DNA of 64,000 nucleotides, from the NCBI GenBank assembly GCA_031002005.1, contig JARYHS010008074.1:344124932-344188931 (forward strand), read 5' to 3'. The DNA is from Vandiemenella viatica. Its lineage: Eukaryota; Arthropoda; Insecta; Orthoptera; Morabidae. The position numbers were made by a program, and so were the translations under genes. This document shows positions 9,626 to 53,000 of this stretch, piece by piece (within the stretch, counting starts at the first letter, position 1; every line of letters begins with the position of its first letter). The notes beneath the pieces are model-generated. The model made no database searches and had not been told where the DNA came from. It saw nothing but the letters and a program-made list of their open reading frames with translations.

Positions 9626-9882
9626 TTTTTTTTTCTTTCATTAACTTATTGCTTTACACCTCGTCGACGGCTAAGGTAATTAGAGGCGGAATGAGACTGG
9701 AGACAAGGAACGGGAAGGAATTCGGCCATGGCCTTTTTGAATGAAGCATTCCGGCATTCGCCTGTAGTGATCTGGGGAAACCATGGAAAACCCAAATCTG
9801 AATGCCCGGACGAGGATTCGAACGCGCGTCCTCCCGAATGCGAGGCCAGAACGTTAACCATTCGCCCATCACGCTCGGTCCG
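9626..9882 (-). mobile_element. full-length tRNA-derived SINE
   Basis: The insertion is bounded by an 8-bp direct repeat CAAGGAAT (9618-9625 and 9883-9890). Reading the minus strand, the head is tRNA-like: an A-box-like segment GATGGGCGAATGG, and a B box GCGTTCGAATCC about 45 bases later, at about 9810-9822. An internal body follows, then an A-rich tail (the T-run at 9626-9634). Pol III would transcribe this from the tRNA-like head, and mobility would depend on a partner LINE. Related 5'-truncated or degraded copies lie at about 49596-49770, 17087-17150, 17170-17400, 17690-17830 and 58940-59140. These confirm a repeat family rather than a tRNA gene. Confidence 0.85.
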
Positions 9883-17086: not shown

Positions 17087-17400
17087 ACCTGGACGACCGG
17101 ACCGGAGAGCCGGTGTCTTCCCGAATGACAGGCTTGAACGTTAGTTAATATCTCACCCAACACATTCACTAAATTATGAAACAAAGAAAGCAAATACTGT
17201 ACTAACTTTTTCTTGTGGCTTTAAGGTCATTCGAGAAGGGAAAGAATTGCTCTTGAACGAATCAACCCTGCATTCACCTGAAGAGATTTCAGAAAATCGT
17301 CGAAAGCCGAAATTTGGATGGCCGGTCGTAGATTCAAATCTGCGTCTTCCCGAATGCGAGGGCAGAATGTTACCGCTCACCAATTATGTTCGGTAACAAT
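17087..17400 (-). repeat. degraded copies of the tRNA-derived SINE
   Basis: Two pieces match the full-length SINE at 9626-9882. 17087-17150 keeps the tRNA head region (TCTTCCCGAATG, CTTGAACGTTA). 17170-17400 keeps body and head, including GATTCAAATCTGCGTCTTCC, where the B box should be, and CCCGAATGCGAGGGCAGAA. Both are diverged and have lost clear flanking duplications. Confidence 0.65.
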
Positions 17401-21850: not shown

Positions 21851-24800
21851 CCGTCCTGGAGAGGACGCTTGCCGGATTAGAATCAGCGGTTCTGCATCAC
21901 GTGATCAAGGATTTTAACATTAAAAGATACTCGTCATTAATTTGAAACAGACGGAAACGGTAACAATTGCAGTTGCTCTGTATCATATCGAAGGTAGCAA
22001 CTGATTAAAAACGGAAGTTTTAATCTTAAACCAAGGTACATCCATCCTAAAGCAAATTAATAATCTGATTTTTCTGAGTATTATATCCTGCTGAGGGAAC
22101 TGACTGAAAGGACCGAATGACGGAGTGCAAAAATTAAGATATAACTTTACAGGGATTCATTCAACCAAGTTATCCAACAAGATGGGAAGCAGACTTTCGT
22201 CAAACCTTTTCCCCCCACCCCCCTTGTCTTTTATACCACATACACAGTTATAAATCATTAGTAAACACGTTTAATGCCCATGAAGAAAGACAGTCCACAC
22301 AACCAAAATTTTTTGTAATAAAAAGTTGATATGGGTATTTTGAGGGTGATAGAGTATTAATGCCTTCCTTCATTTATTCAGTGAAGACAAAATTAAAAAG
22401 AAGATAAAATGTTTGCAGGCTTATTTTTATGAGAAAAAGAATGTTTAAATTATCGTTCTGACCTCTAAATTTCAAATTCTGACTGTAGGACTTCAGGGCT
22501 TACTGCAAGGATCTGAACTGGGGAGGGGGGTACAGCTCATATTGGTTTTGAGAGATTTATTTGTTTACACTATTTTTAGTTTAGATTATTAGACTTTAAT
22601 TTTTCTTTCCCTCACTAGGTACTGAGGCTAAGGTTCTGATACTGTAGGGAGGATAGGGAGAAGGGGGCTGGGGAACTAGAGATTAAAATGTTCTAGTATC
22701 AAAGCTTCTGGAAATAGTGGAAATGTTAAGAAGCAAATCACACTGAATTGGCAGGAGTAACCAATTTTTCCTTTAAATCACTTCCTTCCACATATACATC
22801 GGTTTATAGGCAAGTAGCTATCAGCCCTTGCAATCAAACTGAATGAGTTCTCTCTGCTAAATTTTCAGAAGGCTGTCTAAACTTTTCTCTCATGAGCATT
22901 CTTGTCATCACTTTGCCATACACAGCAACTCATAAAAATCAATGGATTTTAAAGAACAGAAGCTTCCCCAATTCTGGTAAAGATGAGGTCAGAGATTGAC
23001 TTCAAAACAATGCATTTAGTAAATGAAATCCACTGGAGAGAGTCCCTAAAATGTTTTACACATTTTTACGGAATTTGGAGAATTCAATGGACCTTGAAAT
23101 TTTAGTGTCCTCTAATGCCATTCCCTCATATGTAGTATGGGTATGTGTGCTATAGGTTCCATACCGGTACAAAGTCAAAATCAGAAATTAAATGTAAAGC
23201 TTTCATCAACATACCCACTGCATTTAATAATTTAAAGTGGCCTGCATGTTTTCTTTGATTTTAAGATTAATTTCTTATATAACAATTTTGTAAAACACAC
23301 ACACACATTAAACTGAGATACCAAGAGCATATAGCAAAGTAAGTATAAGAATCTGGACCAGACACATTTTAAGACTACCGGTACAGGGAGAAAATGGTGA
23401 AAAATTCTCCTCGGAATGAACAGGACATATAAAACAACCTCACGCTCCAATAGGTTGCCAATGGAAAACCTTGGGGCACTATATGGCTTGGGTACAGAAA
23501 ATGGTAAATATATGGAAAATCAATGGTTCATCAATAGTACGAGTTCAAGACATAGTCAGATTCTTATACAGAGAATGAAAGTGGAACAGTAGACAGAATA
23601 ACTTATCTAGACTTCAAGTGTTGGGCTACCTGCTAAAATGCAAATATAACCAAGGAACCCATCATGTATTCATCTAGATTAATTTTAAGAGCTGTATAGT
23701 GTGATTTCCAGCTTAAAAAATTCCAGAACCAAACGTAACTCTCACTGTCAAGACATTCCTCACATGGTTTGCAACAACAGACAATAATTAAAATTTCACA
23801 AAATTTAATGCCATTTTCTCTCAATTTGCCTTGCAAAATTAAACTGGTAAAGCATGATATATTTTCCCACATTTCCGATGCATGCACTTATTTAAAGCTG
23901 AAATTAACTTCATAATTTTTTTAACTGTGCAGAGCTCAGACTGTAAGATAAATACAAGAAGAGAAAAACCGTAATTTATTAATTTTAATTAAAATAAAAT
24001 CAACTTTCAAAAATATATATATATATATATATAGATTAAAAAAAAATCTTAGTGTTAAAGTAAATTCGTGTGGACTATGACCTTGGTGACACAGTATCGA
24101 TTTGCTATTCATTCCACCTCTGTAGTGTCTGGACCAACAGCTTAACTTGAAATCAAAAGCATGGAGCATCATGGTGTAGTCATATTAACAAAGCAAAGAT
24201 CTTAAAAAATCCTGGCTGCACCTAGTTTTGAACTGTGAATTTTTAAAGCAATCACTATAGCCATTTTTTTAACTCATCGTATTTAATATGAAACTCAATA
24301 TGTTATCAATACAACAGCAATGAAGAACTATTACAGTTTTGAAGGCTGATGTAGTCAGTCCCTGCTCTGCTCTCTTTCATCTAATTTTTAATTGGTCAGA
24401 TTTGTCTAGTTTTATTCTTGCCCCCTGATGGATCTTCTGCTTCTACACTTTGCTATCAACAAAATTTTGTTTTGTGAGAATAAGTGAACCAAGATTTGCA
24501 CATTAAAGATGTCTATTTCAGATGGCACTTTGCAGTACCATAAATAGCCAAAACCTTTTCATAATCATCTTGGTAAATTGAACCAAATGAAATATTTCAT
24601 ATATTAATAATACAACCTGGCAAAAAAAAAAAAATCATAATTGGAAAAGTTCTTCTCCCTTCCCCTTCCCCATGCCCGACTCATTATATGTTTACATAGG
24701 TTGCTGTATCCATATAATTTGCATATGAAAGCTTGTAATTTTTTCCCCTTTCCTGTTTTTGCAGAATTTGGTAATACTGTGATATTTGAAATCATTTACG

Positions 24801-24884
24801 TAAGTGCCTTTCTTTCTGGTTACATAATTTACTAGCTGTTCCATGATCCAAAATGTGGATTTTTGCTTCAATGGTGGATTTTCC
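21851..24884. other. gene-poor stretch below the last CHTF18 exon found
   Basis: This region could hold C-terminal CHTF18 exons, but none was recognisable. It contains a CA microsatellite (23295-23307), a TA microsatellite (24012-24031) and several chance frames without domain features. Confidence 0.4.
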
Positions 24885-24892
24885 GATTGATA

Positions 24893-25089
24893 CAGGGCCG
24901 GATTAAGACAGTGCAGAGCCCGTAGCAAATTTGAAGAAGGGAATTGTAGAGCATCACGGGGAGGCTCCCGAGACTCAGGCGTGGGGTCCCCCTAGGAGGT
25001 GCGAGGCCCCTCAAAGGGCACGAGGTCCCCCAGAAGGCATGAGGCCCATAGCATTTGCTAACTCCTTCTACGTGGCTAATCCGGTGCTG
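24893..25089. mobile_element. small hAT-like MITE
   Basis: About 197 bp with terminal inverted repeats CAGGGCCGGATTAAG and, at the right end, the complement CAGCACCGGATTAGC. The flanks GATTGATA (24885-24892) and GAATGATC (25090-25097) match at six of eight positions, which fits an aged 8-bp hAT duplication. The interior is GC-rich and non-coding. Confidence 0.6.
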
Positions 25090-25897
25090 GAATGATCTGT
25101 TTTCATAATATAGGCAATGTAGTCTCTTGAACTATTTATTAATACCAATTTACCTTGTAATCATTTCCAGATTGCCTCTTTCCTGTTGAAGAGATAACAA
25201 TGTTCTAAGGTGTCTTCCTCTTTGCAATATTTGCTGCTAGACAGTTTCTTGTGCTAAGGTGTCAATTTTAACCAGCAAAATGTATAGCACAGTGGACTTA
25301 TGTGCACATTAGTGTTGCTGACATTGATTCAGATTTTGATTGGTTCATACCAACAACAAGAAGAGAACAAGTAGTTTTGTTTTCCTCTAGGATTGTACAA
25401 ACAATAAAACTAAAATAAATAAAACTGAATATATAGCAACATGTCAGTGGCATTTTTTAAAAATGGTTTTAAATAATTTGCTTATGGATAGATGTTAAAC
25501 ATAAAAGTTAATTAACAAACAAATAATAACAATATATGAATAAAATGATACTTGATAGCGTACTTATATTGACAATAGAGAAAAAAAGCCAGCATTTATA
25601 CAATAGCATGATTGCTTCGAAACAGATATAGTAAATTATAACATAAAAGTAACAAATTTGGGACAAGGCTTTTGTATCACAAGAAGAGTGTTTAAATGGA
25701 CATGATACATCAGCATTATGACAAATGAATATTTTATATAGTTTTGTAAAGTTGATGATAGACTGAATATGGATAATGATAATGACATAACAGATGTCCA
25801 TCATTCACTACCATCTTGAAAGAGACCGTTTTTAAAACAAATAAAACTATTTTTAAATTAATCCAAATGTTGTAAATTAAGTTTCAGATCTACTTAC

Positions 25898-26068
25898 CTC
25901 ATATCCTGCATTAGGATATGTTATCTTTGGCCAAGAAGTTGTTGCAAATGTGAAATGCCAAAAAGCAAATGCATATGGCAAATAAGGCATTAATACATAG
26001 CTCTGATTTGTCTGAATAAAACAGTTCATAAAATCAAACATGCAGAACCAATCTAAACTGTCAGCAAT
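25898..26068 (-). CDS. CHTF18: CHTF18 exon, last one detected
   Basis: This 171-nt exon (57 codons, both ends phase 0) begins IADSLDWFCMFD and includes VLMPYLPYAFAFWH and the WPKITYP segment. This corresponds to the CTF18 region with conserved (Q/M)PYLP.AFH. The acceptor is CTTTGCAG and the donor TATGAG/GTAAGTAG. The remaining C-terminal exons, including the conserved tail that contacts polymerase epsilon partners in this family, were not recognised at lower coordinates. Confidence 0.9.
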
Positions 26069-29000
26069 CTGCAAAGAAGAAAAGAATAATCAAAATTTTA
26101 AATGCAGCATGTTCAAACATAAACCAGTCATCAATTTTCCCAATCTGAATATAAATGTAAAAATATTTAAGTATCTTACCTTCTTCAATTGAGGATAACC
26201 TTCCTTCAAATTCATATTCAAGTAGTTTTCAAAAACACCTTGAGCAACTCTTTCATAATCACCAAAACTTTGAACTGTATGAATTATATTTTTCATTCTA
26301 TAACAGAAATTAAGGATAGAATTTCAGTGGTTTATAATTACAGATAATTGAAACATAGAAACTGCAATTAGGTATTGAAAATAAGATAGGATATGGAAAA
26401 AAATAACCAGTCACTTACCACAGTTGTAGGCAAGAGGGCAAGAAAAACACATAACAAAAATCAAGCAACTTCACAATAATTCGTAAATAAGCGTAGTCAT
26501 GTGGGAGGCTGCTTCTATGTGGGAGGATGGACTCTGATGGCATATATGCTGAAGCAAATATTAAAATTGTTGATCTCATGAGTTGTGGCATGAAAAGATA
26601 CAGGATGGCTAAGGCTCTAGGTTAGTACAATTTGTCAGCGGCCATTCATTCCAGAGGTCAGACCTACATATGACGAAGGGATAATGGTTGCAGGTAGTAT
26701 GGTATAAGTTTATCACATGGGAAGTTTCACAGGTGGCATGTCCTATGATGGGAAAACTTTCCGCAGTTACTGGTTTGGAAAGTGGAGGAGGCATGGTGTA
26801 TGTTGCACATTATGCAATGGTATCTATTAGTCCTAAGTTGCCATGACCAGCTGCAAGTGAACCACGCTGTGAGGTGGGTAAATGTGGAAACGGAGGGGCT
26901 ACTTGGGAACAGCCACAGTTCGGTCGTGGGGATTGTGCCTGTGGGTGGGTTTTCACTAGGAATAGCCTACACCTAAAGAGGATGGGCAAGGTAATACTTT
27001 CTGAGTTGTTAGCTGAGGCTGTAAGGGAGCCCACCACAACTGATAATAGGGTTTAGATTAGGTGCTGCTTGTGAGGGGATTAAAAAGAAAAGGCAACCAA
27101 AGGGCTCCATAGTTAGAAAAATCATTAATGCTAAAGAAATAGATGAAGCTTTTGAAACAGTAACAGAGGGAGGCAGATCTGGGAAGGCAAATGTTAGTGC
27201 TGAAAATATCACAAAGCCAGTGATAAGTGTGTTACTGGTAAACTGTAGAAGTATAATGATCAAACCTAATAGAGTTACACGAAACTAAAGTAGTTATAGG
27301 GGTAGAGTCCCGGTTAAAAGAAGGAGTACTAGAAATTGATGTTTTCCCCGGTGGTTAGATATGTAGATGTAGATGTAGGTTACAGAGTGTACTGCAAAGA
27401 TAGAGGAGCAGCTTGGGGGAGATGTATTCATACCGCTTAGCAAAGACTACTACAGTTCACTGGTGTTCAGAGATCAGGACCATGAGTTGCTTCGGGTAGA
27501 CTTCTGGGGAAATAAAAAAGGAAAAGTAAGGGTGTTGGCTACTTAGCATAGTGGAAAAATGAATGATAAAGATGAGGCTCTTGGGAAGAAACTAAAATCA
27601 TATTTAGAATTCAGAAGTGAGCATAGAATTGTTATTATTGGTAGGGATTTAATCTTACCAACTGTCAGCTGGGTAGGAAATAAGATTAATAACACAAAGT
27701 AACAGAGATTTACAAATACCTTAATAAGAGAAGGAGGCTTTACACAAGTAGTTGAGCAGAAAACAAGGGGACCAAACATATTGGATATCTTCCTAATAAA
27801 GCCTGATGATAACCTTATTGGGTGTCAAGTAACTGAAGAAATAAGTGATCACAGTACAGTTCTGATGGATATAAGGGGATTCAGTAAACCAGTGGCCAGA
27901 TTTGTCGGGAGAAATAGATACAATTTTAAAAATGCACAAATTTTGGAACTGAAAAGATATTTTACAGTTAATTTTATTAAGTGGAAGAATGGCACAAGTA
28001 CAGTGGACACGTAGTGGGAAGAGTTCACGGAAATAAAAAAAAAAAAACGGGTGAAGAAATGTTTATTCCAAAACAGAAAATAAATAGAAGTACAAAACCC
28101 ACATACTATAACAGGGAGGTGAGGAGGTTACAGAGGTTGACGAGATGAGAACATTACAAATTTAAGAAATGGCAAGACAATTGGGAATTCTTGAAACAAC
28201 TAAACAAGGTATTAATAATGTCAAAGAAACTGGCTAAGGATGAGTTTATGAAAAATATTACTGGTGCAGGGGGACCACTGACTGATGCATACAGAAATTT
28301 CTATAGCTATATCAGAAAACTGAGGGGAAGAGTGGGTGTTGAGAAAATTATAGATAAGGATGGAGAAGAAGTAACTAAGTATTTAAAAAAGGTAGTTAAT
28401 AAGTAACTGGTTCACTGAGACCATTAGGGACTATTTCAGGAATGGTAAGGGTTATAGCAAAAAATGAGTTTATCTGCACAGTTGGAAGTGAGCAGATTCG
28501 AAATTTGAATATGCAAATGGAGACTTTCCCGGCGTATTGATTCAATAAAAGTTTCACGGGAGTCCAGCCGGATGGTGTCATTAAACGACGACGTCATAAA
28601 ACGGCCACGTGCCGCGAGACCACCAAGACTTTATGGCTTACCGAAGAAACATAAACAGGATGTTCCTTTACGTCCGATCCTCAGTACTATTGGGTCACCG
28701 ACTTACCAACTTACTAAATATCTGACGCGTCTTCTTAGTCCCATTGTGGGGCGTAGCTGCCATTATGTCAAAAACTCTGCTGAATTCGTAAAAACCATAC
28801 AGTCTCTCACTGTTTCAGACTCTGACATCCTTGATAGTTTTGATGTGGTGTCTCTTTTTACTCGTGTGCCGGTAAAGGACACTTTGGACTTGATTCGCCG
28901 TCATTTTGAGCCAAGTACAGCAGACCTCATTGATCATGTACTTACTTCCACCTACTTTATGTATGGAGGGAAGTATTATGGACAATCTGATGGAGTGGCC

Positions 29001-32000
29001 ATGGGATCTCCTCTTTCACCGATGGTGGCTGACCTCTACATGGAAGATTTTGAAGAGAGGGCTCTTGAGAGTGCTACCCTAAAACCCACTTGTTTTTACC
29101 GCTATGTTGATGACACCTTTGCCGTATGGCCACATGGTATGGAAGCGTTGGATGAATTTCTAAACCATCTTAATGACATCCATCCCAACATACGGTTTAC
29201 GATGGAAGTTGAGAAGGACGGGTGCATCCCGTTCATGGACATTTTAATCAAACGCAAACTTGATGGATCTTTGGCACATAGTGTGTACCGTAAACCCACC
29301 CACACTGAAAGTTACTTGGGTGCAACCAGTTACCACCACCCAGCACAACGCCACTCCGTATTGACCACATTGGTGCGCAGAGTGAGAGCCATTTCCGATC
29401 GTGAGAGCTTACCGCTGGAGTTGAAACATCTAAGGACTGTCTTTGATCAGAACGGGTACTCTCGATGACAGATAGAGGGTGCTTTTATCCAGAAGCCACC
29501 AAGACCACCGAATGAACAGATTGAACCACCAAAATCTCTTGCATTTCTGCCATATGCCGGCAACACGTCCGGAAAGATCGGAAGGCTCTTGGCGCGTTCT
29601 GGTATAAAGAGCATTTTTCGGCCACCCGCCAAGATACGTGATGTGCTTCGCTCGGTTAAGGATGATTTGGGCCTAAGAATTCCTGGAATTTATTCAATAC
29701 CTTGCGAATGCGGCAAAGTTTATATTGGACAGACGATCAGAACCATCGCCAAGCGTATCACCGAGCACAAACGACACTTGAGACTGGTGCAAGTGGAAAA
29801 GTCCGCAATAGCCGAACATGCGTTCGATGAAGAACATAAAATAGTGTTTGATGAAACGGTGGTGCTGGCCAGAGTCTCTTCGTTCTGGGATTCAGTAATT
29901 CGGGAAGCATTGGAAATTCAACTTAACGATAATAACATCAATAGGGACAGTGGACTGTATTTAAGTGAAGCCTGGAGACCAATTATTAAGGATCTATGTC
30001 TTAAAAAACAAAAATCTTCCCAACAAGGCCAAATAGAAGCAAACTGATGCCATGGACATAGTTTGCCAGCACTTACGTCTACAGGTTAAGCAACGTTAAA
30101 CGTGGCGAGTGCTTGGATGGGTGACCGCGTAGGGCTCAATACGCAGTCCGCAACACAGATACCCTCGGCTTGCGGTAAACCGGTTAAGCAACGGTGAGCG
30201 TGGTCAGCGCTTGGATGGGTTACCATTTTCCACGATAACAACTTTTCATACGAGCTTCCTGCCAACTACAAGAACCTCTTGAAATGCCTGACGAAGAGGG
30301 AATGCAGCCATCTCGCCAAGCAACGGATTGTGAAGGACTACCCAAGATGGCCCGAAGAATGGCCTGAGGCGCTAGTGTTCCCGACACTGTGGGCCAACGA
30401 TTTCAACATCCAAGAGCACATCGAACTTCTCAAACGACGGTTTCTCCTCATGCCATACCCACGGGACAACTTGCAAGAAGCTGACCCAGCAGAAGAAGAT
30501 GGCACTGAGGAGAACACAGCGGACGAGGAGATACCACAGGAGGAGGGACCAGAACAAGGACCGGTCCTCCCAGTAACGGCGTGGTTCGACGGAGGCTACA
30601 TGGAGCTTATCGCCGAACTGCAAGCCTTCACAGCTGACATCATCCTGGCCATCCCCATCAAGGGCGGTCTGAAATTCATGCCGCAACACCCACAGCAGCT
30701 AAAACTTCTCCACAAGTTTCTGGAGGCATACAACATCGAGCACGCCCCACAGCTGCCAAGCAGACCCGCCAAACTGGTGGTACGGGGACTACCAGGCGAC
30801 ACTACCGAGGAAGCGGTCGCCGCAGAACTGAGTGACTGTGGGATTGCCACCTTCGCAGTCCACCAGATGCGGTGCCCGGGCACCAACGAGCACCTGCCAC
30901 TGTACACCGTACAGCCAGCTGAACGGGTACCAAGAGAAAAGCGCCCTCCGATACTACTCGATAACAAGGTCCGGATAGAGCTGAAGAAGAAGCCGCCGCT
31001 CGCCCTCACCCAGTGCTACCGGTGCAATAATTTCGGTCATCTAGCCCGGGATTGCACCGGGGCACAGAGATGCTTGCGTTGTGGTGAAAACCACAGAGTG
31101 GCGGACTGCCCGCAACCAAGGGAAGCAACGAAGTGTTGCAATTGCGGGGCCACTACTCACGCAGCAAGCTGGGGCGGGTGCCCATCCCGCCTCAACCTCT
31201 GCCGGGCCAAGCAAGCGCCCCCCACCACCACCAGTGAGCAGCATCAACGACGCAGCCAGACGCGGAGGGTGACGAATCCGAGGCCCGCAACGGACGCGAC
31301 CGGACCAGCTCAGAGAGGAGCCGGCCGAGCAAGACACACTCGCCGCACAGCCGCCGAGCAGGACGGACGGGGAGGGCGAATGTCAGCCCGACCTGCAAAG
31401 CCTGATACAATCGATGGCAGATGCCATCACAAAACTACCGCAAATAGTAGCTGAAGTGACTGCGCAAGCAGTTGGGGCAGCATTAACAACAAGATAGCCA
31501 GCAACCAACACCATGAAGCCCAACAGAAATGACAACATTAAAGAAGCAAGGAAAGTAAAAGAAACCTGTAAAAGCAAATAGCTGAAGGCAATGCCAAATA
31601 GGCAAACACTTCTACAAAAGAATTCCCCAACCCAAGGGTTAGGGAAGAACGATGGAGCTCTAGCGAAGCCAGTCTGTTTGTGATTTCGAATAAAATAGAC
31701 CTGATGAAGACAACCGAGCAGGTCGAAACGTCGTCGTTTTATGACACCATCCGGCTGGACTCCTGTGAAACTTTTATTGGATTAGAAATTTGAAATTAAA
31801 TATGAAGATATCATGAAGGAACTGAGGAAACTAAAAAAGCGTAAAGAGGCTGGTGTGGATAATATTACTATGGATGTCTTAAAGATATCAGGATGTGACA
31901 CTTTACCTTGAACATTATTTAAATTGAGTCTGGATACTTGTTGTTCACCAGATGACTAAAAAAGTGCAATAGTAGTACCAGTTCATAAAGGAGGGATGAG

Positions 32001-35000
32001 AAATAATGTTGAAAACTATAGGCTAATTAGCTCGACATCAGTGATAGGTAAATTAATGGAAAGATTAATATGTAACCATATCAGACATGTCAGCGAGGAA
32101 CATAAGTGATTTTCAAGTCGGCAACATGGCTTTAGAAAAGAATATTAATTTTAATCTCAGTTAACAGACTATATGCAAGATACTTCTGATGAAATGGACA
32201 GGGGAGATCAAGTTGATAGTGTAGCACTAGATCTTTCAAAGGCTTTTGACTGAGTGATCCATAAAATGGTGCTAAATAAGGTAAAAACTATTGGAGTTGA
32301 CAAAATGGTGATTTGCTGGTTAGAAGAATTCCTTAAAGGTAGAAAGCAAAAAGTTAGGGTAGGAAATGCAGTATCAAAAAAAGAAGGAGTGAACATGGGA
32401 GTCCCACGGGGTAGTGTATTGGGACAATTGCTATTTGTTATTCTAATTAATGATTTTGTTAATGGTTTACTGTCAGATGTTAGATTGTTTGCAGATGACA
32501 TAATGTAATATAAGAGGATAAAAATGGTAAAAGATTGTAAACAACTGCAGGGTGATTGAGACAGGATAACTAGCTGGTGAGTCAACATGGGATGAAGATA
32601 AATGCAAAGAAGAATCAGCTTATTAGGTACATAGATAAAAAACTAAAGGTTGATTATGATTATAAAGTGTGGAAGGAGCTACTTATTGAAGACTAAAAAT
32701 GTAAATACCTCGGCATAACTTTTAATAGCAGACTTATCTGGGCAGGACACATTGGACAGGTAGTTGGAAAAGGGTTCAAAATCCTTCACCTGTTGGAAAA
32801 AGTGATAATTGGATGCACTAGAGAAGTAAGGGAATTGGGGTACAAAACTTTGGTCAGACTACTGCTGGAATATGGTGGTGTAGTATGGGACCCTCATTTT
32901 GGGTATCAAATACAGGAGTTGAAGGGGGTGCAGATAAGGACTGCCAGATTTGTCTTTTGAAATTAGTGCAAAACACAATTGGTAACTAATATGTTAAAGG
33001 TGCTGGAGTGGGATTCATTGGAGGATAGAAGGAGGGTGAAGAGAGTCATAGGAGTGTACAATTCATATATTGGTGATGAAGCATGGAAAGATATTGGTGG
33101 GAAAATTAAGAGAGGTGCATGGTAGGGTAAAGAGGACCATGACCACAAGCTGGCAATTGATTTCAGGCATAAGGGTGTGGGAAAATTTTCTTTCATAGAA
33201 AAGGGTGTAACGCATTGGAATAAATTGCCAAGAGAAATGATGAATAATTTACTAAAATTACTGGAACAATTTAAAGTAAAAATTAGTTAAATGTAAAAGT
33301 AGGAAATTGCCACCATAGCAAGCATTCCATCGCAATTTTTTTCAGTTATTATTATTACTGTTTGGAAACCTTGGGACTGTCCTGAAAGACAGGGAGACCC
33401 GTGTTTGTGGGCTATGAGTTGGCTGAGGTTAGGAAGTCTATGGAAGGAAGAAAGGAGGAAGGAAGGTAGAGGTAAGGGAGGACTTTAGGGAGGAGGTATC
33501 TTATTTCCAGGCCTTGCCATAGGATTTAGTTAACAGATTCCAGGCCTGGAAACTACTGGTTGATCAGGCTGATTTTGGAGAGAGTGGTTGACAGGACGAG
33601 CAGGTTGGGACGTTGAATGGTGATGTTGTTTCTGAACTAAATTTGGTGGTTATTTGGGGATATCAGAGCTTGGGAGATGTCACTGGAGTGCATTGTGAGA
33701 TCATTTTCCACTTTGATCCACATCATAAAAATGTCATTTATGAACCTGAGTCACAAGAAGGGCTTCCAGTAGTCATTATACAGAACAACTGTCACAGGTA
33801 TCCTACGTATATGGTTACATAAGAGGTGGCCATACAGGCGTCCATGGCTTTGCCACAAATCTGACTGTAAATTTTGCACTCAAAGGAGAAAAAGTTGATA
33901 TATTATGTGGGCCAGGTTGGTGAGGAAAAATGTGCTTGGGGGGGGGGGGAGGACTGTTTGGAGGGCACTGATCAAGGAAATGTTTCATTGCACTAAATCC
34001 AGTGTGGATGTTAGTATACAAAGGTGTCACGTGAAATTAGTAGTCATGGAAATGACCGGAGTAACAAACAGAGATCGAGCGAGGTAATAGGTGTGTGCTT
34101 TTGAGTTGATGATAAACCATTACTGTGAGCAAAGGACCTCATATTTTTAGATCCATATCTATTCTATTGATTGCTACTTTAATAAATTGCAAGAAGTCAC
34201 ATGAAATTCTTTCACCTTCACTGACGAAGAGAAACAACACATGGCACAAACCCCAGAGTTCCCACATGAAGAAGTCATCCAAAAGTCCCCAAACCTGGAA
34301 TACTTATTCGCCCAGTGATAAATTTCAGAAAATCACCAACATATTATGATGCCAAACACATGCAGAAATTTCTCTCACAATATTACACTCCACACAATGA
34401 CAAAACCATAAGAAACACCTCACACCTCATTGACAAGATCAAAGACATAGACATACCAAATTCAGCAACACTATTATCCTTTGACATACAGAACATGTAC
34501 ACAAACATTCTAATCAAATAGACTTTAAAAATTATAGGCCAAAATCTTAAACAAAAACTAATCCCAGACACACACATTGAAGAGGCTTTAGATATACCTA
34601 CACTCCTGACATCACAGAACTACTTCCAATTCAACAACCAGTACTACACACAAAATGATGGCCTACCGATGTGGTCACTGATATCAGGAATAATTGCAGA
34701 TATATTTGTGAACCATGTGGAGAATGAAATATTTGACAACATTGTAAAAAAAACAAAGGATACAACATTATATATTATTACAGCTTTGTTGATGAAATGT
34801 TTTGCCTGGCCAATGAACCTGAACAGAGGATATAAGAATTGCATGCTGACATCAACACAATACACCAAAACATCAAATTCACAATGGAGAAAGAAACAAA
34901 TGGTAAACTAAACTTCCTTGACACAGCCATAACAAGACACAAACAACAACTCTCATTTCAGATCAACAGAAAACTCACCACCACAGACATGATAATAGGA

Positions 35001-38000
35001 ACTGAATCAAACCATCCACAAACTCATAAAGAAGCTGCAATAAAGCACATGCTCCACAGACTGAACAATATCCCACTCAATAACGATAACTACACACTAG
35101 AATTAAACACAATAATCTATATAGCCACCAAAAATGGCAAGTAGGAAAGCAGGGTATACCAACTAAACAACAAAATTATAAGACAAATAAATAAAACTTC
35201 ACACAACACAACCCCATCATCACAAAAGACTTTCAACCACAGTCGATCAACTCCAGACAACACACCACACCCACAACAAAATATTAAGAAATGTTATGTG
35301 ATGACATACATCAACTAAGACACATAAAAATTGCAAATATATTTAAAATAACAGGGATTAAAAATAGCATTCAGAACAGACAACACAATACAGAAAAACA
35401 TTAAAAATAACACACAAACCAATAAAAATTACAACTCAGGAAAAAAAACTGATCAGCCATTTGTAAGAAACATACAGTACAGTGCAATGCATTGCAGTGT
35501 TGTGATACTTACTTACTGTACCGTCTGTGTTGTGATATTCACCAGTTTAATAACCATATAGAAAATGAATCACTTCTTATAAATAAAGAATAAATCACTG
35601 CTGCTCAGAGTGGAGCATATGTAAATGCAACAGACCATAAAATGAGAACCCGCAGAAGATGCTTCTGCAAAAGAAGTGAAATACTTTTGGGAGTTCAATA
35701 AATACTCAAGCATTCAATTGCTTTGGCATTATTTATTCATCAGTATTATCAGCAATTGAGGAAAATGATCCACAACATCCAGATATTAAGTCATACGAAA
35801 GTTTGTTGTTATCTGAATAGAAGAAATTAAGTTAATAAGTTTGAAGATTAAAGATCTGAATGAGTTAGAATGGGACATGTATCCCTAAAGACCAAGTCTG
35901 ATAGCTACACAAATAGTCAACCAACCATAAATAATACAACATTGGGAGGGTGAGATAAGGGCACAGTAGAACAACAGGTAAGTTGTGTCACTTTGATGTG
36001 GGAGGGAAGTGGGCTTACAATGTCTTGTAAGTACTGATCCACTAACACAGTGGTGCATTCAGTGGGAGAACCATAAGTGATAATTATGGTTTTCCAGTCT
36101 TTCTGGGAGTGAGGAGTAAGATAGACTCAGTGATGAGGTCTTGGAGGGGTATGCTGAACTGTATAAAATCTTCAAACCTCTTGTTGCCTGTGAGTGTGGG
36201 GTCACAAGTGAGTGGGCAGTAGCTGTTAGTATCTGACAACTGACGAGGATCCTCAACCAAGTAGACACAATAATTCATGACCACTGTAATTGAGCCAATA
36301 TCGGCAGGGAGGAAAGTCAGTTTTGAATCTGCAGTAAGCTCCCCATTGGCTCAGTTTTTTGAATGGGCCCAGACTGGTGCCACTAGGTAGGAATTTCAAA
36401 AACATGGTAAAAAATTTGTGTATACATATATACTCTACTAAGTAACTAACATAAATGTCAGATGGATCCTCCCACAGAAGGCATAGTAAGTCAGTATGTA
36501 AGAGACAGGAGAACTATTCAAGACCTTACTGAACTAAGGAGCATCCTGTTATAGCTCACAAAGGAAAGCTTCTAAAAATTCTAGCTCCACCTGTATTTAA
36601 ACCCAGGCCTTAAAATTTTTAAGGCAAGCACCTTAGCACTGATTTACCAGACCATATATTTACACACAGGATTATTCAAAAAGCAGAGGCAGATTTTGCA
36701 TTTTTATTTCTAAAAAATTATAAAAGATACAAATATGTGCCACAAGTCGCAGAATAGATGAAGTTTAAAGTTTTACTGTATACATTTCACTTGAGCATTA
36801 TATGTTGCAAGACACACTTCAAATTTCTTGCCATACACACAACAACTCATTCCTAGTTATCAAATTCGTAACTGAAACAATTTGACTTCGCAGTTATTGA
36901 AGAGTAGCGGTCATCGATAATACAAGCACTTTATCTTTTAAGTACCCCCACAGATAAAAGTCACAGGGAATGCACAGTGTACATCAACAATGAATTCACT
37001 TTTTGCATACTGTAGCAAATAAAACAACTTCTCTTGTGGTGCTGCCATTTCCACCTAAACAGACAACAGTGCCATTGGCAGTTGCAAATGGAGCTAATCA
37101 GATAGCAAAAATAACACATCACTTATCACAGATAAAGGGAGGAGAACCAGACAAACACAAAAAGTCACAAACACACTTTACAATATTTCGGTTAACAATG
37201 TTATACATGTAGGACGCGAGACATGGTAGGAGGAATGATATTTACACATCCAGACCTACCACAAGAATAATTCAAAGTGGAAAAATGGATGTATTGTTAA
37301 ATTGTCACTAAAGCCTGCACTTCATTGCAATTAAATATTTTTATTTTTGTCATTTTAAAATCCACACACACTGCTCACTCAAAATTTGTATATAAATATC
37401 ATCCAGTTCAGGAATTGAATCTTATTACTTATTTATACTTATATATTCTCTTCTATCTTTACTCAACCCCTTTCCTTCCTAGTCATTACATTTTTGAATC
37501 CACCATCATCCTTATACACCACTAAACTGCCACAGAAGCTAGCATCAACTTCATCCATACACCCACCAGTAGAGACCCTGTAATTCTGGAGACAATGGCT
37601 ACCTGTTTTTATTTTATTTATTTTTTTGTCTATGCAGCAATGTTTTCTTGGGAAGTAATAGTTCCATCCTACCTTTCTTGATACTTACTTTTTCTTGCTA
37701 ACCAGCACATTTTGTTTCCATCAAATTCATGTTGAGCCATTGTCACAGCCCGTCATCAAAAGGTTATCACTGTATTTATTAGTTAACCAAAATACAATAA
37801 TATATTAGCAAGGATTGAAGAGGATCAGTTAACTGAACTTAAATATGGAGAAACATCCTCTAATATGATATTAGGATTCTACATTCCACACGACCAACTG
37901 TTGGTAATTATACATTTATATTGGCAACTCTGTAGGAATATATTATCTATGCATTCATTCGTTTGTATACTCTATGCTCTATTATACTATGGTTGACAGC

Positions 38001-41000
38001 AAGAAGACAAAAGATGTGTAAGCAAAAGTTGATTTTATTTCTTTAATAAAAGTGGTTACTAAATATAAAAATGAGTATTATTCTTAATATTAAAATGGTA
38101 GCAGAGCGTGGTTTTTAAAAGGACTAAAGTGAAAACAAGGATTTTTGTGTGCAAACAAGAAAAATATAGAAAGATCATCTATGTGAAAATGGCGGCGAAA
38201 AATAGTGATATTAACATTCCAATTTTCGATGGTTCAGACTATAGCAATTGGAAAATACATATTCTCAAGTTCCTACAATTTAAAAAGTGTAAAGATGTAG
38301 TAATGCGACCTAAAACATCTGCCGACGATGCCACATGGGCGATCGTGATATTCAAGCTACCAACTATATTTACAGCGCAATAACGAACAGACTAATTGGA
38401 GTACATAAGTGAAATAGAGATGGCCTACGATATCATTCAAAAGTTTGATGAAATGTATCTGAAAAAGTCGACGGCTTTGCAAATTGTATGCCGACATAAC
38501 CTCGAAAATGTCAAATTGAAAAATTACGCAGAAGTGTCTTTGTTCTTCGACGACTTTGAAAAGTGTGTAAACGAACTGAAACAAGCCTGGGGCGGTAATA
38601 TCAGAACAAGAAAAACTGAATTATATGCTGAAATCTTTGCCGCAGAATTATAGTCATATTGGGGACTTGATTGACGTGCTCCCTGAAAAGGACAGAACAG
38701 TAGATTATTTGAAAAGTAAAATAAAATTGAAAAGGACCGAAGAAGAATCAAATGAGACATCACGTGACAGCTCTAATGCTTTTCGAGCAGAAACTAGGAC
38801 ATCATCAGCGTCACACACAAACTATTTTAAACCAGGTCAGTTTCAAAAAGAATGTCGTACTCGTACTGAATATACACAAAGAGGTCGAGGTCGTGGATAT
38901 TCTATGAATAGAGGTCGCGGATATTTTGGAAGTAGAGGACGTGGATATTCCGTCAGTAGACGAGGTACATATAATGCAAGAAACTTTCATGGACGAGGAC
39001 ATTATAATAATGAGCGACCCAGAAATGATCATCATGAGCAATATGGGAGTAGTTTTCATACAACTATCGCAAATAATACAACAACAAATGAAAAAAATGA
39101 GACAAAAAAAGAGAAATAGAATGGTTACTTGACAGCGGCTGTACAGACCATATTATTAACACGGATGAATACTTTGAATCTTGTGAGACATTAAAGAAAC
39201 CTGTTAAAGTCAAAATTGGTGATGGTAGAATACTACAAGCTGAAAAGATTGGAAATATAAAGGTAAATTTTATGGTTTATGGAAAAAAATCAGAAGTGAT
39301 GTTGAAAAATGTGTTCTATGTTAAAGAAATGAAAGCGAACTTATTAAGTTACTCAAGAATTACAGACAAATACTCAATTGTGTCAAAGAGGAGATTGGCA
39401 AAAATATATAACCCATATAGAAAGGTGATAGGGGTTGCAATTAAAGATGAAAGATTATATAAGATGAGAAGCTATGTGAATGAAAATACCTTGGAAGCAA
39501 ATTTAAGTAAAAGTAAAATGACTGTGAAAGAGAAATTACACCGTACGCTGGGACATGTAAACTTCAATAATTTAGAAATGATGTGCAAGAATGAAACATT
39601 GGAAGGATTGCCTAAAGAGACTGAACAAGAATATTTTAGGTGTGTGACATGCATAGAAAATAAAATGCATAACTTACCTTTTCATAATAACAGAAGAAAA
39701 GCAGATGATATACTACAAATAGTTCATACAGATTTGAATGGTCCTCATCAAACAGTAGGAGACCATGGTGAAAAATACTTTTTAAGTTTTATAGATGACT
39801 ACAGCAAACTGGTTAAAGTCTATTGTATCCGGACAAAAGATGAAGTATATGATTGCTTAGTGCAATATGTTAATGAAGTACAAAACCTCACTGATAAGAC
39901 AGTAAAAGAATTACGTTGTGACAATGGTACCGAATATATAAATTCAAGAGTTTTTCAGTTTGCAAGAGAGAAAGGAATCGTTATAAAACCTTGTCCAGCA
40001 TATGTTCACGAATTAAATGGAACTGCAGAGAGGTATAACCGGTCTCTAATGGATATGGCAAGATGTCTCTTATCAGAAGCTAAAGTTGGAAGAAAATATT
40101 GGCCAGAAATAATTAAAACAGCTGCCTACCTCAAAAATAGAACCTTGACTAATACTATTGAAAAGAAAAGTCCGTATGAAATATTTTTCAAAAGGAAGCC
40201 TACAATGAAGTATCTGAAAATGTATGGCAGTAGAGTCTTTGTATGAATACCAGAAGAGAGAAGAAAATCTAAATGGGACAAGAAAGCAGAAACTGGAATT
40301 TTACTTGGCTATACAGACACTGGATATAGAGTATTAATTAACAACAAAGTAATAGTAGCCAGACATTGTGATATTGTAGAAGAAGACGTGACATTGTGTG
40401 GATTTCAAGATGAGAGAGATGAAAATTTGGAAGAAGGAAAAGGAATTGAAAAGGATAATCCAGAATGTGTGGGAGGAAATGATACAGATACACCAAACAG
40501 TAACAATGATGTAGAAATTGATGAAGACATGGACAGAAAGAAATCAAAAAGACAAGTTAAACCTCCAACGCGATTTGCTGATGAGTTTGGCTATTATTGT
40601 ATCAGTGTAAACTACTGTGATGCTATGACACCAGAGAACTTTCAGGAGGCGGTGAACTGCGATGATGCAAATGAATGGAAGGCAGCCATGGATCATGAGA
40701 TGAACAGCCTAGTGAAAAACAATACATGGACACTCGTTGACAAGCCAACCAAGGACAAAAAGGTGATTGATGTGAAATGGGTATACAAAAAGAATGAGTG
40801 AAAGGTGAGTATAAAGCCCGATTAGTAGTTAGAGGTTTTCAACAAACTGACTGTTTAGATGATACTTATTCTCCTGTAGCAAAAATGCCAACCTTAAAGC
40901 TTTTATTGTCATATTGTTGTCAAAATTCTATGGAAATCCATCAAATGGATGTAGAGACTGCATTTCTAAATAGTAAAGTTTTGTCAGAAGTTTATGTAAA

Positions 41001-47000: not shown

Positions 47001-50000
47001 AGGACTTGTGAAGGTACATTGCTAAATTAAAATAATCATATTATTTTAAAAATGAATTTTATTTTTGCTTTATCTTCACTGACACTAGTTGCATGTGAAA
47101 ATCATTTTCATACTTTGAAAAGGAAAAACTTCTTCAATCGCCAACAGTTACTTTAAGTTTTGAAGTCTGTACTGGTAGGTATTGGGTAGCAAAAATTGAT
47201 ATGAAATGATTTATTACGCAATAAAATCCTCTCGGGTTTCCAGCCGGATGGTGTTGTATAAACACAACGTTTCCACAGCAAGCTCTGCTGTCTTCATCAC
47301 GTATCTTCTTGCTGTCGCAAGATGACTGTCACTGCCTCGATTGGCTAATACCTTTTTTCTCCCCTTATATTCTAGAGCACCACTTTCTTGGGAAGCTTTG
47401 CTTGTTAGAGTAAGGTTATAGGTTTGGGGGCATTCTTTATTTTATCACTTTTGGGGAAAACCTGTGACCACAGTTCTTGTGGTGTTACGTAAAAACCGAT
47501 ATAATGGTCTTTTACTCCTCCTGGTTTAAGATACTTCAAGGTACCTTGTATCTGTGCCATGCTTTGGGCTCAAACGTATCAACTCATCATAGCCGAGGCT
47601 CTATATGTTTCTCTTTATATATTTTACTATTTAATTTTTATGCCTGTGTTTTAATTTCACATTTAATGTAGTTTATTCCTGTTTGGTCATAGAGTTGTCT
47701 AACAGGCATGTACATTCTCGCACCAAGGATTATTCTCAAGCAGTGATTTTGTAGTCTTTGTAAAAGTTCAATATTCGAATTTGCCAATATTCCCCAAACT
47801 GGACAGCCGTATAGCATAAACGGCCTTATTACTGTCTTGTATATTTTGCACTTAGTCCGAAGTGTCAGTTCTTTACTACTTAGTATCTGGTATAAGTTGA
47901 TTATAATAAACATTCCTTTTCGAATCCTTTCCCTGAACAGCATCTTTTGGTCTAGTTCGACTCCTAGGTATTGATGTGACTTTGTCCATGGTATCATTTG
48001 TCCATCTATTTTTAATTCAGGTAGTTTTTCAAAGTAGTACTGTTTTTGTAAGTGAAATATACTTGGAGGTGTTGATCGTTACTTTGTTGGCTCTACACAA
48101 TTCGGTGAGTTTGTCGATGAATTTTTGCAGTCTTCTGATGTTTGTGTAATATCTGTATCCGATGGTATATTTCGTCTTATCATCCGCGAATTGGACGAAT
48201 TCAACTTTTGTGTGTGTGTGTCTGTCATGTTGTGTTTCTGCAAGCCCCGCTACCTTTGATAGCTCTGGTTCTTTGTGTCAAGTAGTATTTGTTCTCTCTG
48301 TTAGTGGTGTACACTTTGGAGAGTAAAACCGTTATCAGGGGAAAACCTCCTTGGTGTATGTACAGGACAGGATCTGTGGTTAGGTATAATTTTATTTTTA
48401 TTCGGATTGGTAAAGTATACTTAGGGGAACTTTATACTTGTGCCATCTCTTTGGTTTTTAGTTTCCAACGCCTCTTAGGTTTTCTACCAATTGCCTTGTT
48501 CTGGTCATATTTTTCTGGAATCTATCAGTTTGTTGGAAGATTGCTGTATGTATCCTTGGAATATTTGTCCAGCGATGGAAATTGTCTATTTGAGTATATC
48601 TATTTGCCCGTAGTATTATACGTAGACTTCTATTCTGTATTACTTGTATTTTCTGTACGTGGGCGTTACTTGTCGTTTCCCATACTTCACAACATAGAGA
48701 AAGGTCAGTCGAATTATGGTTTTATTTTGGTATTTATTGATAGTTCCTTGCTATACAGAATCGGATATAGGTTCATTAATATAGCTAGGTTTTATTTAGC
48801 ATTTGTCCTTGATGTGTTGATTGTACAGGAATTTGGAGTCTAGTATCACTCCTAGGTATTTGTGTTTTTCTTTCCAGGGGATTCCATGACCTGCCAGTTG
48901 TAACTGTGTATCCGGTTTGCTTCTTCTTTTTGTGAAGAATACAGCTGCGCTCTTGTTAGCATTGATGCACACCTTATTCTTTGTGCACCATTTCTCTATT
49001 TCTTGTAGTTGTCTCTGCATCCTATTAACTATCACATAGACGTCCTGAACACATACATAGCCACTGTATCACCAGCGAATTGAGCTAAGGTGATGCCCGG
49101 AATTGAAGCGAATTTGTTTACATAGACTTTAAAACATGGTGGCGATATGACTGACCACTGTGGTACTCCCGCAGTCATTAGTCGTTTAGTTGATCTCTGT
49201 CCTTTTACTGACACATAAAAGGTTCGATTCGTCACGTAGTCTGCTATTATTACTGGTCAATCTATGTTTCTTGTTGTAGTTTCTTTAACAGGATATCGTA
49301 ACAAACTTTACTGTATGCTTTCTAGATATCCAGGAAGACAACCGCTGTTGACTTAGAAGTGTTGAAATCTTCGCTTATCAATTTGGCCATTCTATACAGT
49401 TGTAGCAATGCTGATAATTTATTTGTAAAACCAAATAGTTCTAATCGTATTGCCTGATTTTCCTCAAGTTGACAATTAATTTTGTTTTAAGTAACCTTTC
49501 GTATTTTTTAGATAGGCTGCTGAGCAGGCTGATGGCTCTGTAGTTTGTTGGGTCTGTATGTCCTTTTCCTGGTTCGAGGAAGGCTATGATTTTTGCACTT
49601 TTTTTTTTTAAAAAAATTTTTACTCATTGCTTTATGCCTCGTCGACGGCTAAGGTCATTAGAGGCAGGATGGAACTGGGGGACAAGGAACAGGAAGGAAT
49701 ACGGCCATGGCCATTTTGAAGGAAGTATCCCGGCATTCGCCTGGAGTGATTTGGGGAAACCATGGAAAATGCCATTTTCCAGATCATTGGGAAGTAGCAG
49801 TGTAGCATACAGTTATTTATGATTCTTGTTATTAGGACCATTCCTTTTCTTGGCAGTTTTTTGAAGTGCATATTTGAAATTTTGTTATCTTCCGGTGTTT
49901 TGTTGCTGCTAAGTCGCCTGATGATTGTTTTTATCTCCACTGGGCTAATTAGTTCAGGGTTTACTGGGTCTTCACACTTCCTGATGTTTACAGCAATTTC

Positions 50001-53000
50001 CTTTGTTTCCTCTTGTTGCTGGGCTAGGTTTAATTGTATGTCTGGGCTCCGGTGTTGTCCTTCAAAGTGGTCCACCAGTGTTTCTGCCTTTCCTAGTGGG
50101 TCAAAGACCACTCCATTTGGACCAATGTTTGTGTTGTTACTTGGTTTTGGTTCTTTAAGTACTCGAACCAGACCCCATGCGACTCGGTATTGGAGGGTCA
50201 GTTGGTAAATTTTGTCCTCCGATTGTTCACATCTTCTTTCCTGTAGTCTCTTACTTATTTCTCTAGCTTATTTATTCATTTAATGTTTGTCCACTGGAGC
50301 CCTAAATCTTTTCCAAGTTGAAAGTATTTAAGTTCTTCTACCAACGCTGCCTCTTGCTCTTCCCTTTTGGTTTCCAGTAATGTCACTATTGAGGCTTGTT
50401 TGTCGGCTTTTAGGATAATTTTAGTTAGCCTGCCTATTGCTGTATCTATCTGTGTCTTGTTATTCATTACCATAGTGGGGCAGATGTTTTGTTGAAGTAG
50501 GCTAGTGAATTTTTCCCAGTTCACCTGTCTGATTATTTTTGGATTTTTTGGTTGTTTACCCAGTTCCTCAGTTGTAGTAATACCGGGTTGTGATTTGATG
50601 ACAGGTCATTTATAGTCTCTAAATGAATCAGTCTCCTAATATTCTTAGCCATCACTATGTCCAGGACAGCCGGCTGGTGTGCTTTGAAAGTCGGTATAGG
50701 GGTCGGGTCTTCTGGCCCCATGACTGTTAGATTCGTTTTTTCTAATAGTTCTAGTAATCTTTGCCCTTTCACATTTGCCACTCTACTGTTCTATGCCGGG
50801 TGTTTTGAGTTTAGATCACCAGCCATTAGAACCCTCTCAGATGTTGAAATAGCATTTTTAAGTCCTCCTCTGTTAGCTCTTTTCGAGGACTGAGATATGC
50901 AGCTATAAATCTTACTGCTGCATCTACTGAGTTTATGCTCAATGCACTTGCTTCCAAATGTTGCAGTTCTGGTATGATTTTGGGATGGTGTGCGAGGGAT
51001 GACTTAATTATGATTGCCATACCACCATCCCTTTGTCTTTCTCTGCCCTGCCTATATATTGTCATGTTAGGTATGCGGAAATTATCTGCCAGTTTTAGGT
51101 GGGATTCTGTTATCAACACAAGATCTCTTTTTCACCTCTTTATGAAGTCAATGATTTCCTGTTTCTTGTTTTTGATTCTGTTTGCATTAAAAATGTATTC
51201 ATTGATGTCTTGTATTTTTCACATGCTGTGAGCCATTACTCCAACATTTCGCTTAGTCCTTTGATTAGTGCAATGATCTTGCCCCAAACACTTATTGTTT
51301 CTTTTATTTGTTTTACTGTTGTCATAAAGATTGAGATTGTCATTTTAAAACTCAAGTTTACTAGGATGTCATCCATTTCACTAAGATCCTCTATAAAGTT
51401 ATTTCCTTTTTGCCTTTGACTTCCTCAGACTCGTCCTTCCTCTTTTCAGTGCTTCTGCATCTTTTCTTTTTGTTGGTTTGTTTTTATCTTATCTACATAG
51501 CTTTTTCCTGGTTCCACATTCCATTTTTTTTTTGTCTTCTGATTGATTTGTTATGTTGTTGCGGGTACCTTTCTGCTTCTGAATTCTTGTGCCATTTGAT
51601 TTGTCCTCATTTTGTGATTTTGCTTTGGTTGGTCTTAAAAGGGCCTGGTATGCCCGACATCCCTTCCATGAGGCTGGATGTTCCGTGTCACAGTTTACAC
51701 ATTTCGCATTCTCCTGAGGGTTCATTTTACAATCTTTTGTAGCATGCCATCCCACGCATTTCACACACCGACTGGGCATTTAATAATAATTTGCAGTGTG
51801 ACCCAGTCTCTGACATCAATGACATTGGCTTGGTCCCAATCTGGATTTGTAACTTTCCACAGTTACTCTGGTGTACAGTATTCCTCCCATGTGGTATTTT
51901 TCCCCAGGCTTTTCTCCAGGGTTCAGGGTTACACAATAGGTAGCAAGTGGAGTTAGATCCCTTGTATTAAAATCTCTTTTTCTTTTTGAATTGATGTACC
52001 ATTTGTATATCGAAACCATAGTTAACAAGTTCAGTTTTGATGATGACCACTGGAGATTTTTGTGGAAATCCCTTGATTACTGCCTTTGCCTTTGGGGTCT
52101 GGTGAGTACAGAAATTTATTTTCTCCCTAAAGAAGAAACTTCTCACTGATTCATAACTTTCCATGTTTTCTGGATAATACTTTAAGCTGTCACCGAGGAA
52201 GATCACCTTGATATCTCCTTTTATAATGCTTTTAATTTTCTGGTTTAGTGCCAGAAAGTTTACAATCTGATGCCTCACTATTGGTGGGATCCTTGGGTGT
52301 ATGGGTCATTCTGTTTATTCTGTTTTCTCTCTTCTTCTCATTCAGTTGATGCCACTTCATCAATCTCCTCTTCTTGGTCTTCATCGGATTAGTCGGACTG
52401 GTCAGATAATATTGTAAACCTGTTCTCCAATTTCATCTTCTCACAAGAGTTTTGTCGGATTCAGTCATTTCCCTTCCTTTGTTTTGTACTTGACATCTGT
52501 TGTATAATGTTGTGAATTTAAACCCTTTCTGAGGCACTTCGCCTTCTCGTCCAATAGAAAATTTACTGCCGGTAAATACAAATACAGGTCCATTTTATGT
52601 CGCATCCTCTCCCTGTGATGTCCCTTGCATGTCCTGGAAGTTTTCTTGCTCCACACCTTCGTTGTTCTGCTCTTCTTCATTAGTTTCCTTCTTCCGACTG
52701 CCATGCCTACTCCGGGGGTATTGCTCTTGTGCCTTGTTGTTACTGTTAGGATTCCCAGCGACAAGAGCAACCCTAAAGCTCATCGCCCGCAGGATATTAC
52801 CCAATGAATAGTCCCCGAGATGCAAAATCCCTAACAGCTAGGAAGGCAGATAGATGTAGCCTAATGCCATATGCAATTTCCAGTACCTACTCCTTCACAC
52901 CTACACCAAATTCCTTTTAATTCCTTCGATAAACACGTTCGTTCACTAAGAGGCTATCAACTCGGAATGGGCACGAAGGTGCAAATGGCGCCAGTCGGTG

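Follow-up and report, generated by a model that had tools for sequence, protein, structure and literature searches.

Components of Composite A

The window analysed here, a stretch of 64,000 nt of the Vandiemenella viatica contig JARYHS010008074.1 (assembly GCA_031002005.1; positions 344,124,932-344,188,931, forward strand), contains at 28510-31784 a chimeric retroelement, composite A, in which a Penelope-like element (PLE) is combined with a piece of a second retroelement, resembling the long interspersed elements (LINEs) and carrying a gag gene. This Penelope-LINE chimera is real; pairings of gag and PLE sequence are found at four places in the host genome, at nearly the same spot of the PLE, with signs at two of these places that the pair was copied together. 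Composite A is probably a 5'-truncated PLE insertion whose pseudo-long terminal repeat (pLTR) bears the nested second retroelement. Its features are listed below (RT, reverse transcriptase; EN, endonuclease; ORF, open reading frame).

28500-28509: target duplication, left copy GAAATTTGAA (sequence match; CR1-like frame continuous across the joined flanks)
28510-28594, minus strand: inverted PLE tail arm; 28510-28539 is an outer tail extension, found also in a second composite of the window (composite B, see below) and in other PLE copies
28599-29465, plus strand: PLE RT domain, 5'-truncated (RVT_1, E 2.3e-10), with an in-frame TGA at 29466-29468
29469-30047, plus strand: C-terminal portion of the PLE ORF, bearing a GIY-YIG motif (GIYSIPC...VYIGQT, by eye; homolog alignments)
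30081-30133, plus strand: 5S rRNA-like segment 1, a regular part of the PLE pLTR (score 24, shuffle maximum 16; host copies)
30179-30224, plus strand: 5S rRNA-like segment 2, a regular part of the PLE pLTR (score 21, shuffle maximum 14.5); PLE homology stops at 30229
30229/30230: left junction, 5S-like end to gag, GGGTTACCATTTTCCACGATAACAACTTTT
30230-31661, plus strand: remnant of a gag-only retroelement, from gag codon 66 on, with a frameshift near 31380 and a stop at 31495-31497 (by eye), then the 3' end region
31662-31784, plus strand: PLE pLTR start region and tail, with the AGCGAAGCCAGTC site, a hammerhead-like core at 31701 and the ORF start codon at 31704; the 3' end lies just past TTTTATTG
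31785-31794: target duplication, right copy GAAATTTGAA (sequence match)

The perfect 10-bp repeat GAAATTTGAA directly borders the unit on both sides, as a first-pass annotation of the window had reported, and merging the flanks through a single copy gives the open CR1-like LINE frame ADSKFEIKYEDIMKELRKLKKRKEAGVD; because the frame stays open once one copy is removed, GAAATTTGAA is a genuine target duplication, stemming from a single insertion event or from a nested series (the second CR1 copy of the window, from 54963 on, begins too late to serve for an empty-site comparison). The annotation had further read the duplication as proof that the chimera existed before it inserted, an argument that fails, since a later nested insertion looks identical from outside and the gag piece leaves the same flanks whether it entered before or after; a chimera is not dated by its outer target duplication. 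The 9-bp direct repeat GCCAAATAG (30028 and 31593), across which the joined flanks keep the PLE frame open, was considered as an inner target duplication and rejected, because chance pairs often match as well (at least 9 shared bases in 421 of 4940 random stretch pairs, the alignment score being reached in 93 of 4940) and because host copies place the breakpoints elsewhere.

The Penelope-like Element

The outer element of A is a PLE. Its RT is telomerase-like, 2186 of the 7998 scored candidates matching it, and its homologs occur in insects and other animals, the best-scoring one with 56% identity across 93% of the query. The RT/GIY-YIG ORF of the first-pass annotation is upheld for its RT domain, and a candidate GIY-YIG motif is seen by eye, but the ORF is 5'-truncated and is broken by the in-frame TGA, and in the 192-aa piece that follows this codon Pfam gives no match at E<=1; homologs align across the region, PF01541 being present in a few of the 120 listed.

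A pLTR, an inverted arm and a tail overlapping the ORF start are all present. The inverted terminal arm (28540-28594) is 95% identical over 55 bp to the right tail (31728-31782), and its approximately 30 further bases beyond the tail match recur in composite B as well as in further PLE copies. The identity of the tail is clear from a host copy, L039 (loci of the host genome are cited by such handles), in which it corresponds to the start of the PLE ORF (MKITEQVVETSSFYDTIRLDSRETFIESIRRESLHLH...), open across all 299 codons translated; the right end of A falls some 76-81 nt inside this ORF, and L040, part of the same element as L039, terminates after 38 codons, that is 114 nt. In the pLTR of A a hammerhead-like CTGATGA...GAAA core is found at 31701; Rfam gives no 5S or hammerhead match at E<=1 over 24000-40000, and on three short stretches its matches lie far under gathering scores, none being to 5S or hammerhead.

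These ends resemble those described for the Poseidon PLE of Anolis, in which reverse transcription starts from two adjacent sites, mostly 111-118 nt inside the ORF, and each strand of the target is cleaved and then extended (PMC11167929): here, too, the tail lies within the ORF start and the 3' ends match internal initiation sites, the 114 nt of L040 among them. In the parts of that account considered here (PMC11167929), neither a captured gag element nor pLTR segments resembling 5S are mentioned for the Anolis element, unlike composite A.

The organisation of ordinary PLE copies was derived from a search of the host genome (3.72 Gb) with the 3275-bp sequence of A, which yielded 142 matches (40 of 6703 candidates scored); the PLE copy counts given here describe 48 PLE-body matches from that listing, A itself left out. 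Outward-facing arms are common, all 10 adjacent pairs among these bodies being head-to-head. Both 5S-like segments are included in 44 of the 48 bodies, which end at query position 1719-1720 (window 30228-30229), the remaining four ending at 1666-1696; a same-strand tail match follows in 42 of 48, after 75-114 bp in 41 cases and after 532 bp in one, so that the ordinary order is RT-EN, two 5S segments, a short spacer, and the tail. The 5S-like segments had been annotated as a component of the chimera; since 44 of the 48 listed bodies contain both, they are PLE sequence and not a foreign part. As to the likeness itself, the local scores of 24 and 21, obtained against a Drosophila 5S sequence, exceed the best of 1000 shuffles (16 and 14.5) and the best score reached by other parts of the window (14); a C-box pattern of 15 bases, with 3 mismatches allowed, gave 3 matches, a number equalled in 11 of 100 shuffles, which counts against the likeness. 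A diverged PLE at L030 also has two 5S-like segments (L030:4190-4291), 83% (44/53) and 72% (33/46) alike to those of A, with 67% (101/151) in the adjoining coding part, so only the first segment stands out. The segments presumably cover the A-box to C-box region and, on their sequence, might act as Pol III-type promoter elements.

The gag-Only Retroelement

The ORF1 stretch of A is the remnant of a separate, multicopy, gag-only, LINE-like element with a family of its own (52 matches, 40 of 780 candidates scored). The complete unit, present at L029, begins with GAGACGTGAGACG, encodes a gag starting MPRDFKNPH, has a poly(A) tract and ends with GATGGAGCTCT; other copies have similar 3' ends followed by unrelated flanks. 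Target duplications of 10-13 bp are recognised in four of the 12 copies for which both flanks were printed, namely GTTCTCATGTC (L031), CCGGCAGCAGT (L012), GGCCACCCTG (L013) and CACCGCCGTCCAC (L030), the last by script and the others by eye, and the duplication-bounded copies at L029, L030, L031, L012 and L013 show gag alone, with no ORF2 encoding EN and RT. A gag ORF with ATG, of 521-525 aa, is kept in 5 of the 19 copies tested (L019, L020, L024, L025 and L026; the 19 include A, L029 and L030 and leave out L027).

The first-pass annotation had placed a Jockey/I-type ORF1 in the chimera. It is indeed a LINE-type zinc-knuckle gag (zf-CCHC, E 6.3e-05 in A, above the cut-off also in L025), but PRE_C2HC stays below threshold (in L025, E 0.047 and 14.2 bits against a cut-off of 22.1), and in A the start is absent and the frame is shifted near 31380, as judged by eye. 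Together with the 5' untranslated region, 194 coding bases are lost, corresponding to codons 1-65, the last one in part, and the gag piece of A, its reading frame incomplete, is probably a passenger. No homolog of the ORF1 of A was found at E<=0.001 among 4285 candidates; the intact gag of the unit has 4 homologs among 8000 scored. Zinc-knuckle gag proteins are encoded by the ORF1 of Jockey/I-type LINEs and by the gag-only element HeT-A, which lacks EN and RT; the unit resembles HeT-A in having such a gag without EN or RT and seems to differ from it in lying at dispersed targets with duplications; of the PRE_C2HC expected in a Jockey/I ORF1 it shows only a sub-threshold match.

Junctions Shared with Other Loci

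At L029 the pLTR runs up to GGAGGC AGCGAAGCCAGTC, is followed by the entire gag unit and resumes with AGCGAAGCCAGTC TGTTTG and the PLE tail; because the unit has its own duplication, AGCGAAGCCAGTC, within the pLTR, it is a nested insertion there. The right (3') junction of A is identical to that of L029, and a 33-bp pattern of it, searched with up to 3 mismatches in the 3.72 Gb, is found in A, L029 (exact) and L034 (3 mismatches), the reversed control giving 0 matches. A fourth locus, missed by this pattern because of a one-base gap, was reached through a 24-base pattern of the 5' junction (up to 3 mismatches; 7 matches, namely L029 exactly, L039, L040, L041 and three others; reversed control 1): L039 and L040 belong to a single PLE whose two pLTRs lie in direct orientation, and both pLTRs contain the same truncated unit (approximately 110 bp) at the same site and the unit/PLE junction GAACGATGGAGCTCTGCGAAGCCAGTCTG (L040 type). 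At L041 the sequence after the 5'-junction match is not PLE-like. At L034 both inverted arms bear the junction of unit and tail, the unit measuring about 150 bp or more in one arm and about 22 bp in the other. The 3' end of the unit is hence located at this PLE site, within a few bases, at four loci (A, L029, L034 and L039/L040), and its presence in both direct pLTRs of L039/L040 and in both inverted arms of L034 indicates that these composites were copied by the PLE as a unit.

A comparison proposed along with the annotation, that of both internal junctions with other loci, is borne out on one side only: the ORF1-to-tail junction is shared as described, but the left junction, 30229/30230, occurs in no other scored match of the copy scans, which used whole-A and ORF1 queries and were not aimed at the junction. 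None of the 48 listed PLE bodies runs past the junction of A into the gag coding part, L040 having the 3' end of the unit only. Intact gag is present at none of the four composite loci: its longest ORF at L029 is of 263 aa, L034 and L039/L040 keep the unit 3' end alone, and in A it is shortened and frameshifted. A two-ORF PLE family, with intact gag in copies sharing both junctions, is not seen, gag being broken or absent at all four junction loci found.

Two loci, L029 and L030, have further peculiarities. A Jockey-like LINE with gag, EN and RT, at L029:515-4545, directly abuts 5S-like segment 2 of a PLE pLTR, in a template-switch-like manner. L030:785-7445 contains two diverged PLE tails with gag-type sequence ahead of each, and its gag unit sits within another gag gene (gag'), between the PLE EN/5S end and the PLE tail. 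This gag' was considered as part of a true two-ORF PLE family, an arrangement which is not the default, 26 of its 47 matches ending at query 845-870, the apparent 3' end of the gag' unit, and 3 of 47 (L030 included) reaching the PLE tail.

Proposed Order of Events and Alternative Origins

The history proposed for composite A would comprise four steps. A gag-only LINE-like element, as is observed at L029, would first have entered a PLE pLTR just 5' of the PLE start codon, duplicating AGCGAAGCCAGTC; the PLE enzyme would then have reverse-transcribed the composite RNA from its tail, with a start inside the opening codons of the ORF that follows, a step indicated by L039/L040 and L034 and presumed for A. 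The copy leading to A may have passed directly from codon 66 of gag to where the PLE pLTR ends in 5S-like sequence, through template switching or a later deletion, and would have proceeded through EN and RT until truncation. Finally, priming of the other target strand on the same tail would account for the anatomy observed, i.e., the inverted arm of 85 bp and the 10-bp target duplication within the CR1-like LINE. The annotation had offered a similar course as its alternative, a LINE fragment nested in a Penelope element and co-mobilised; it is the best fit, given the nesting at L029 and the copying indicated at L034 and L039/L040, though for A itself this order is no more than probable.

Several observations weigh against it. 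The unit of A, 94.5% identical to that of L029, is grouped by 10 informative sites (split support 99) with the units of L031 and L012, which occupy other places, and by 0 sites with L029, and therefore A is no plain descendant of the L029 composite; the left junction is seen, among the scored matches, in A alone; the inverted arm of A contains no gag sequence; in 8 of the 12 printed gag-unit copies no duplication was recognised, the 5' end being extrapolated in several; and a duplication around the whole L034 or L039/L040 insertions was looked for and not found.

Since its inverted arm holds no gag sequence, A may also have arisen by insertion of the PLE into CR1 first, followed by entry of the gag unit into a preferred site of the pLTR and deletion of the left part, a course regarded as possible if somewhat doubtful. 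The unit lineages differ among A, L029 and L034, as repeated hits on the site predict, and gag units are also met at other places, flanked there by duplications of their own; on the other side, L034 and L039/L040 indicate that composites move as PLEs, and the private substitutions of A are equally frequent, though the measure is coarse, in its PLE (25/1469, 1.70%) and in its unit (15/858, 1.75%), the ranges in other copies being 0.28-2.56% and 0.82-5.28%, respectively. This equality fits a joint arrival without proving it.

The unit of L034 is about 81-82% like those of A and L029, although the PLE tail there resembles four ordinary copies at 93-97%; at least three lineages of units have thus come together with a single PLE family at almost the same position, and the difference between A and L029 probably reflects either repeated hits on the same site or an exchange of units. 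The shared site could be the outcome of recurrent insertion at a preferred position, of units being exchanged through template switching, or of template jumping where the PLE RNA begins; insertion is favoured at L029 and L039/L040 because the site is duplicated there. If the PLE RT, on reaching the 5' end of its RNA (the start-site-like CAGTC), jumped onto the 3' terminus of a gag transcript, the junction would recur without insertion. Such jumping is an unlikely explanation: in several unit lineages the gag unit meets the PLE with its 3' end at a single position, give or take a few bases, another gag unit at L030 ends near a similar CAGTC of the diverged PLE (the junction being crossed in 3 of 47 matches, L030 included), and L029 also has a LINE joined to a PLE 5S segment, but at L029 and L039/L040 the pLTR lies on either side with the site duplicated, as in target-primed insertion, and CAGTC is a presumed start site.

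A functional two-gene PLE, whose polymerase mobilises a gag-packaged RNA, had been envisaged in the annotation. Gag units are repeatedly associated with pLTRs in two PLE families, but with intact gag at 0 of 4 composite loci, and with 0 of 48 listed PLE bodies extending into the gag coding part, a working ribonucleoprotein partnership of PLE and gag is unsupported and very improbable. Only slightly less remote is the conjecture that gag-only retroelements repeatedly dock at the PLE start region in the two PLE families, in a parasitic or cooperative partnership in which the PLE machinery would spread the units and gag from intact units would assist the PLE RNA.

Relation to Captured Cargo in Other Elements

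Captured cargo is already known in PLEs, which, according to a review, transduce host DNA (PMC6431247). The Penelopes of Adineta vaga have an inverted pLTR spanning the first ORF codons, an optional 31-bp tail and duplications of 8, 9 and 10 bp; Pen1 has captured spacers of 0.9-1.5 kb ahead of the 3' pLTR, and a non-ribosomal peptide synthetase gene has been mobilised between Penelope pLTRs (PMC3846280). Composite A shares with them captured DNA with pLTR, inverted arm, tail and short duplication; what differs, relative to the elements described there (PMC3846280), is that the cargo is a gag-bearing retroelement, of which several unit lineages are met at nearly one pLTR site. No report of Penelope-Jockey chimeras formed by template switching was found in the open-licence literature. 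PLE pLTRs can take up protein-coding parts of other retroelements and move them, a possible route to new retroelement architectures, and a junction nearly fixed across unit lineages provides a handle for distinguishing site-preferring insertion from template jumping in PLEs.

Other Elements in the Window

In composite B (47207-53300), inverted PLE tails (84% over 140 bp) enclose minus-strand Jockey-like LINE ORFs together with a second C-terminal fragment of an RT, with a possible 9-bp duplication, ATGATTTAT, at 47206 and 53320. PLE-like protein fragments of other families lie at 34270-35144 and 57181-57526 (tblastx to the RT of A). A dispersed short repeat, GCATTCGCCTG..., occurs at 9737-9856, 17253-17372, 49678-49801 and 59002-59121, one copy interrupting the LINE of composite B.

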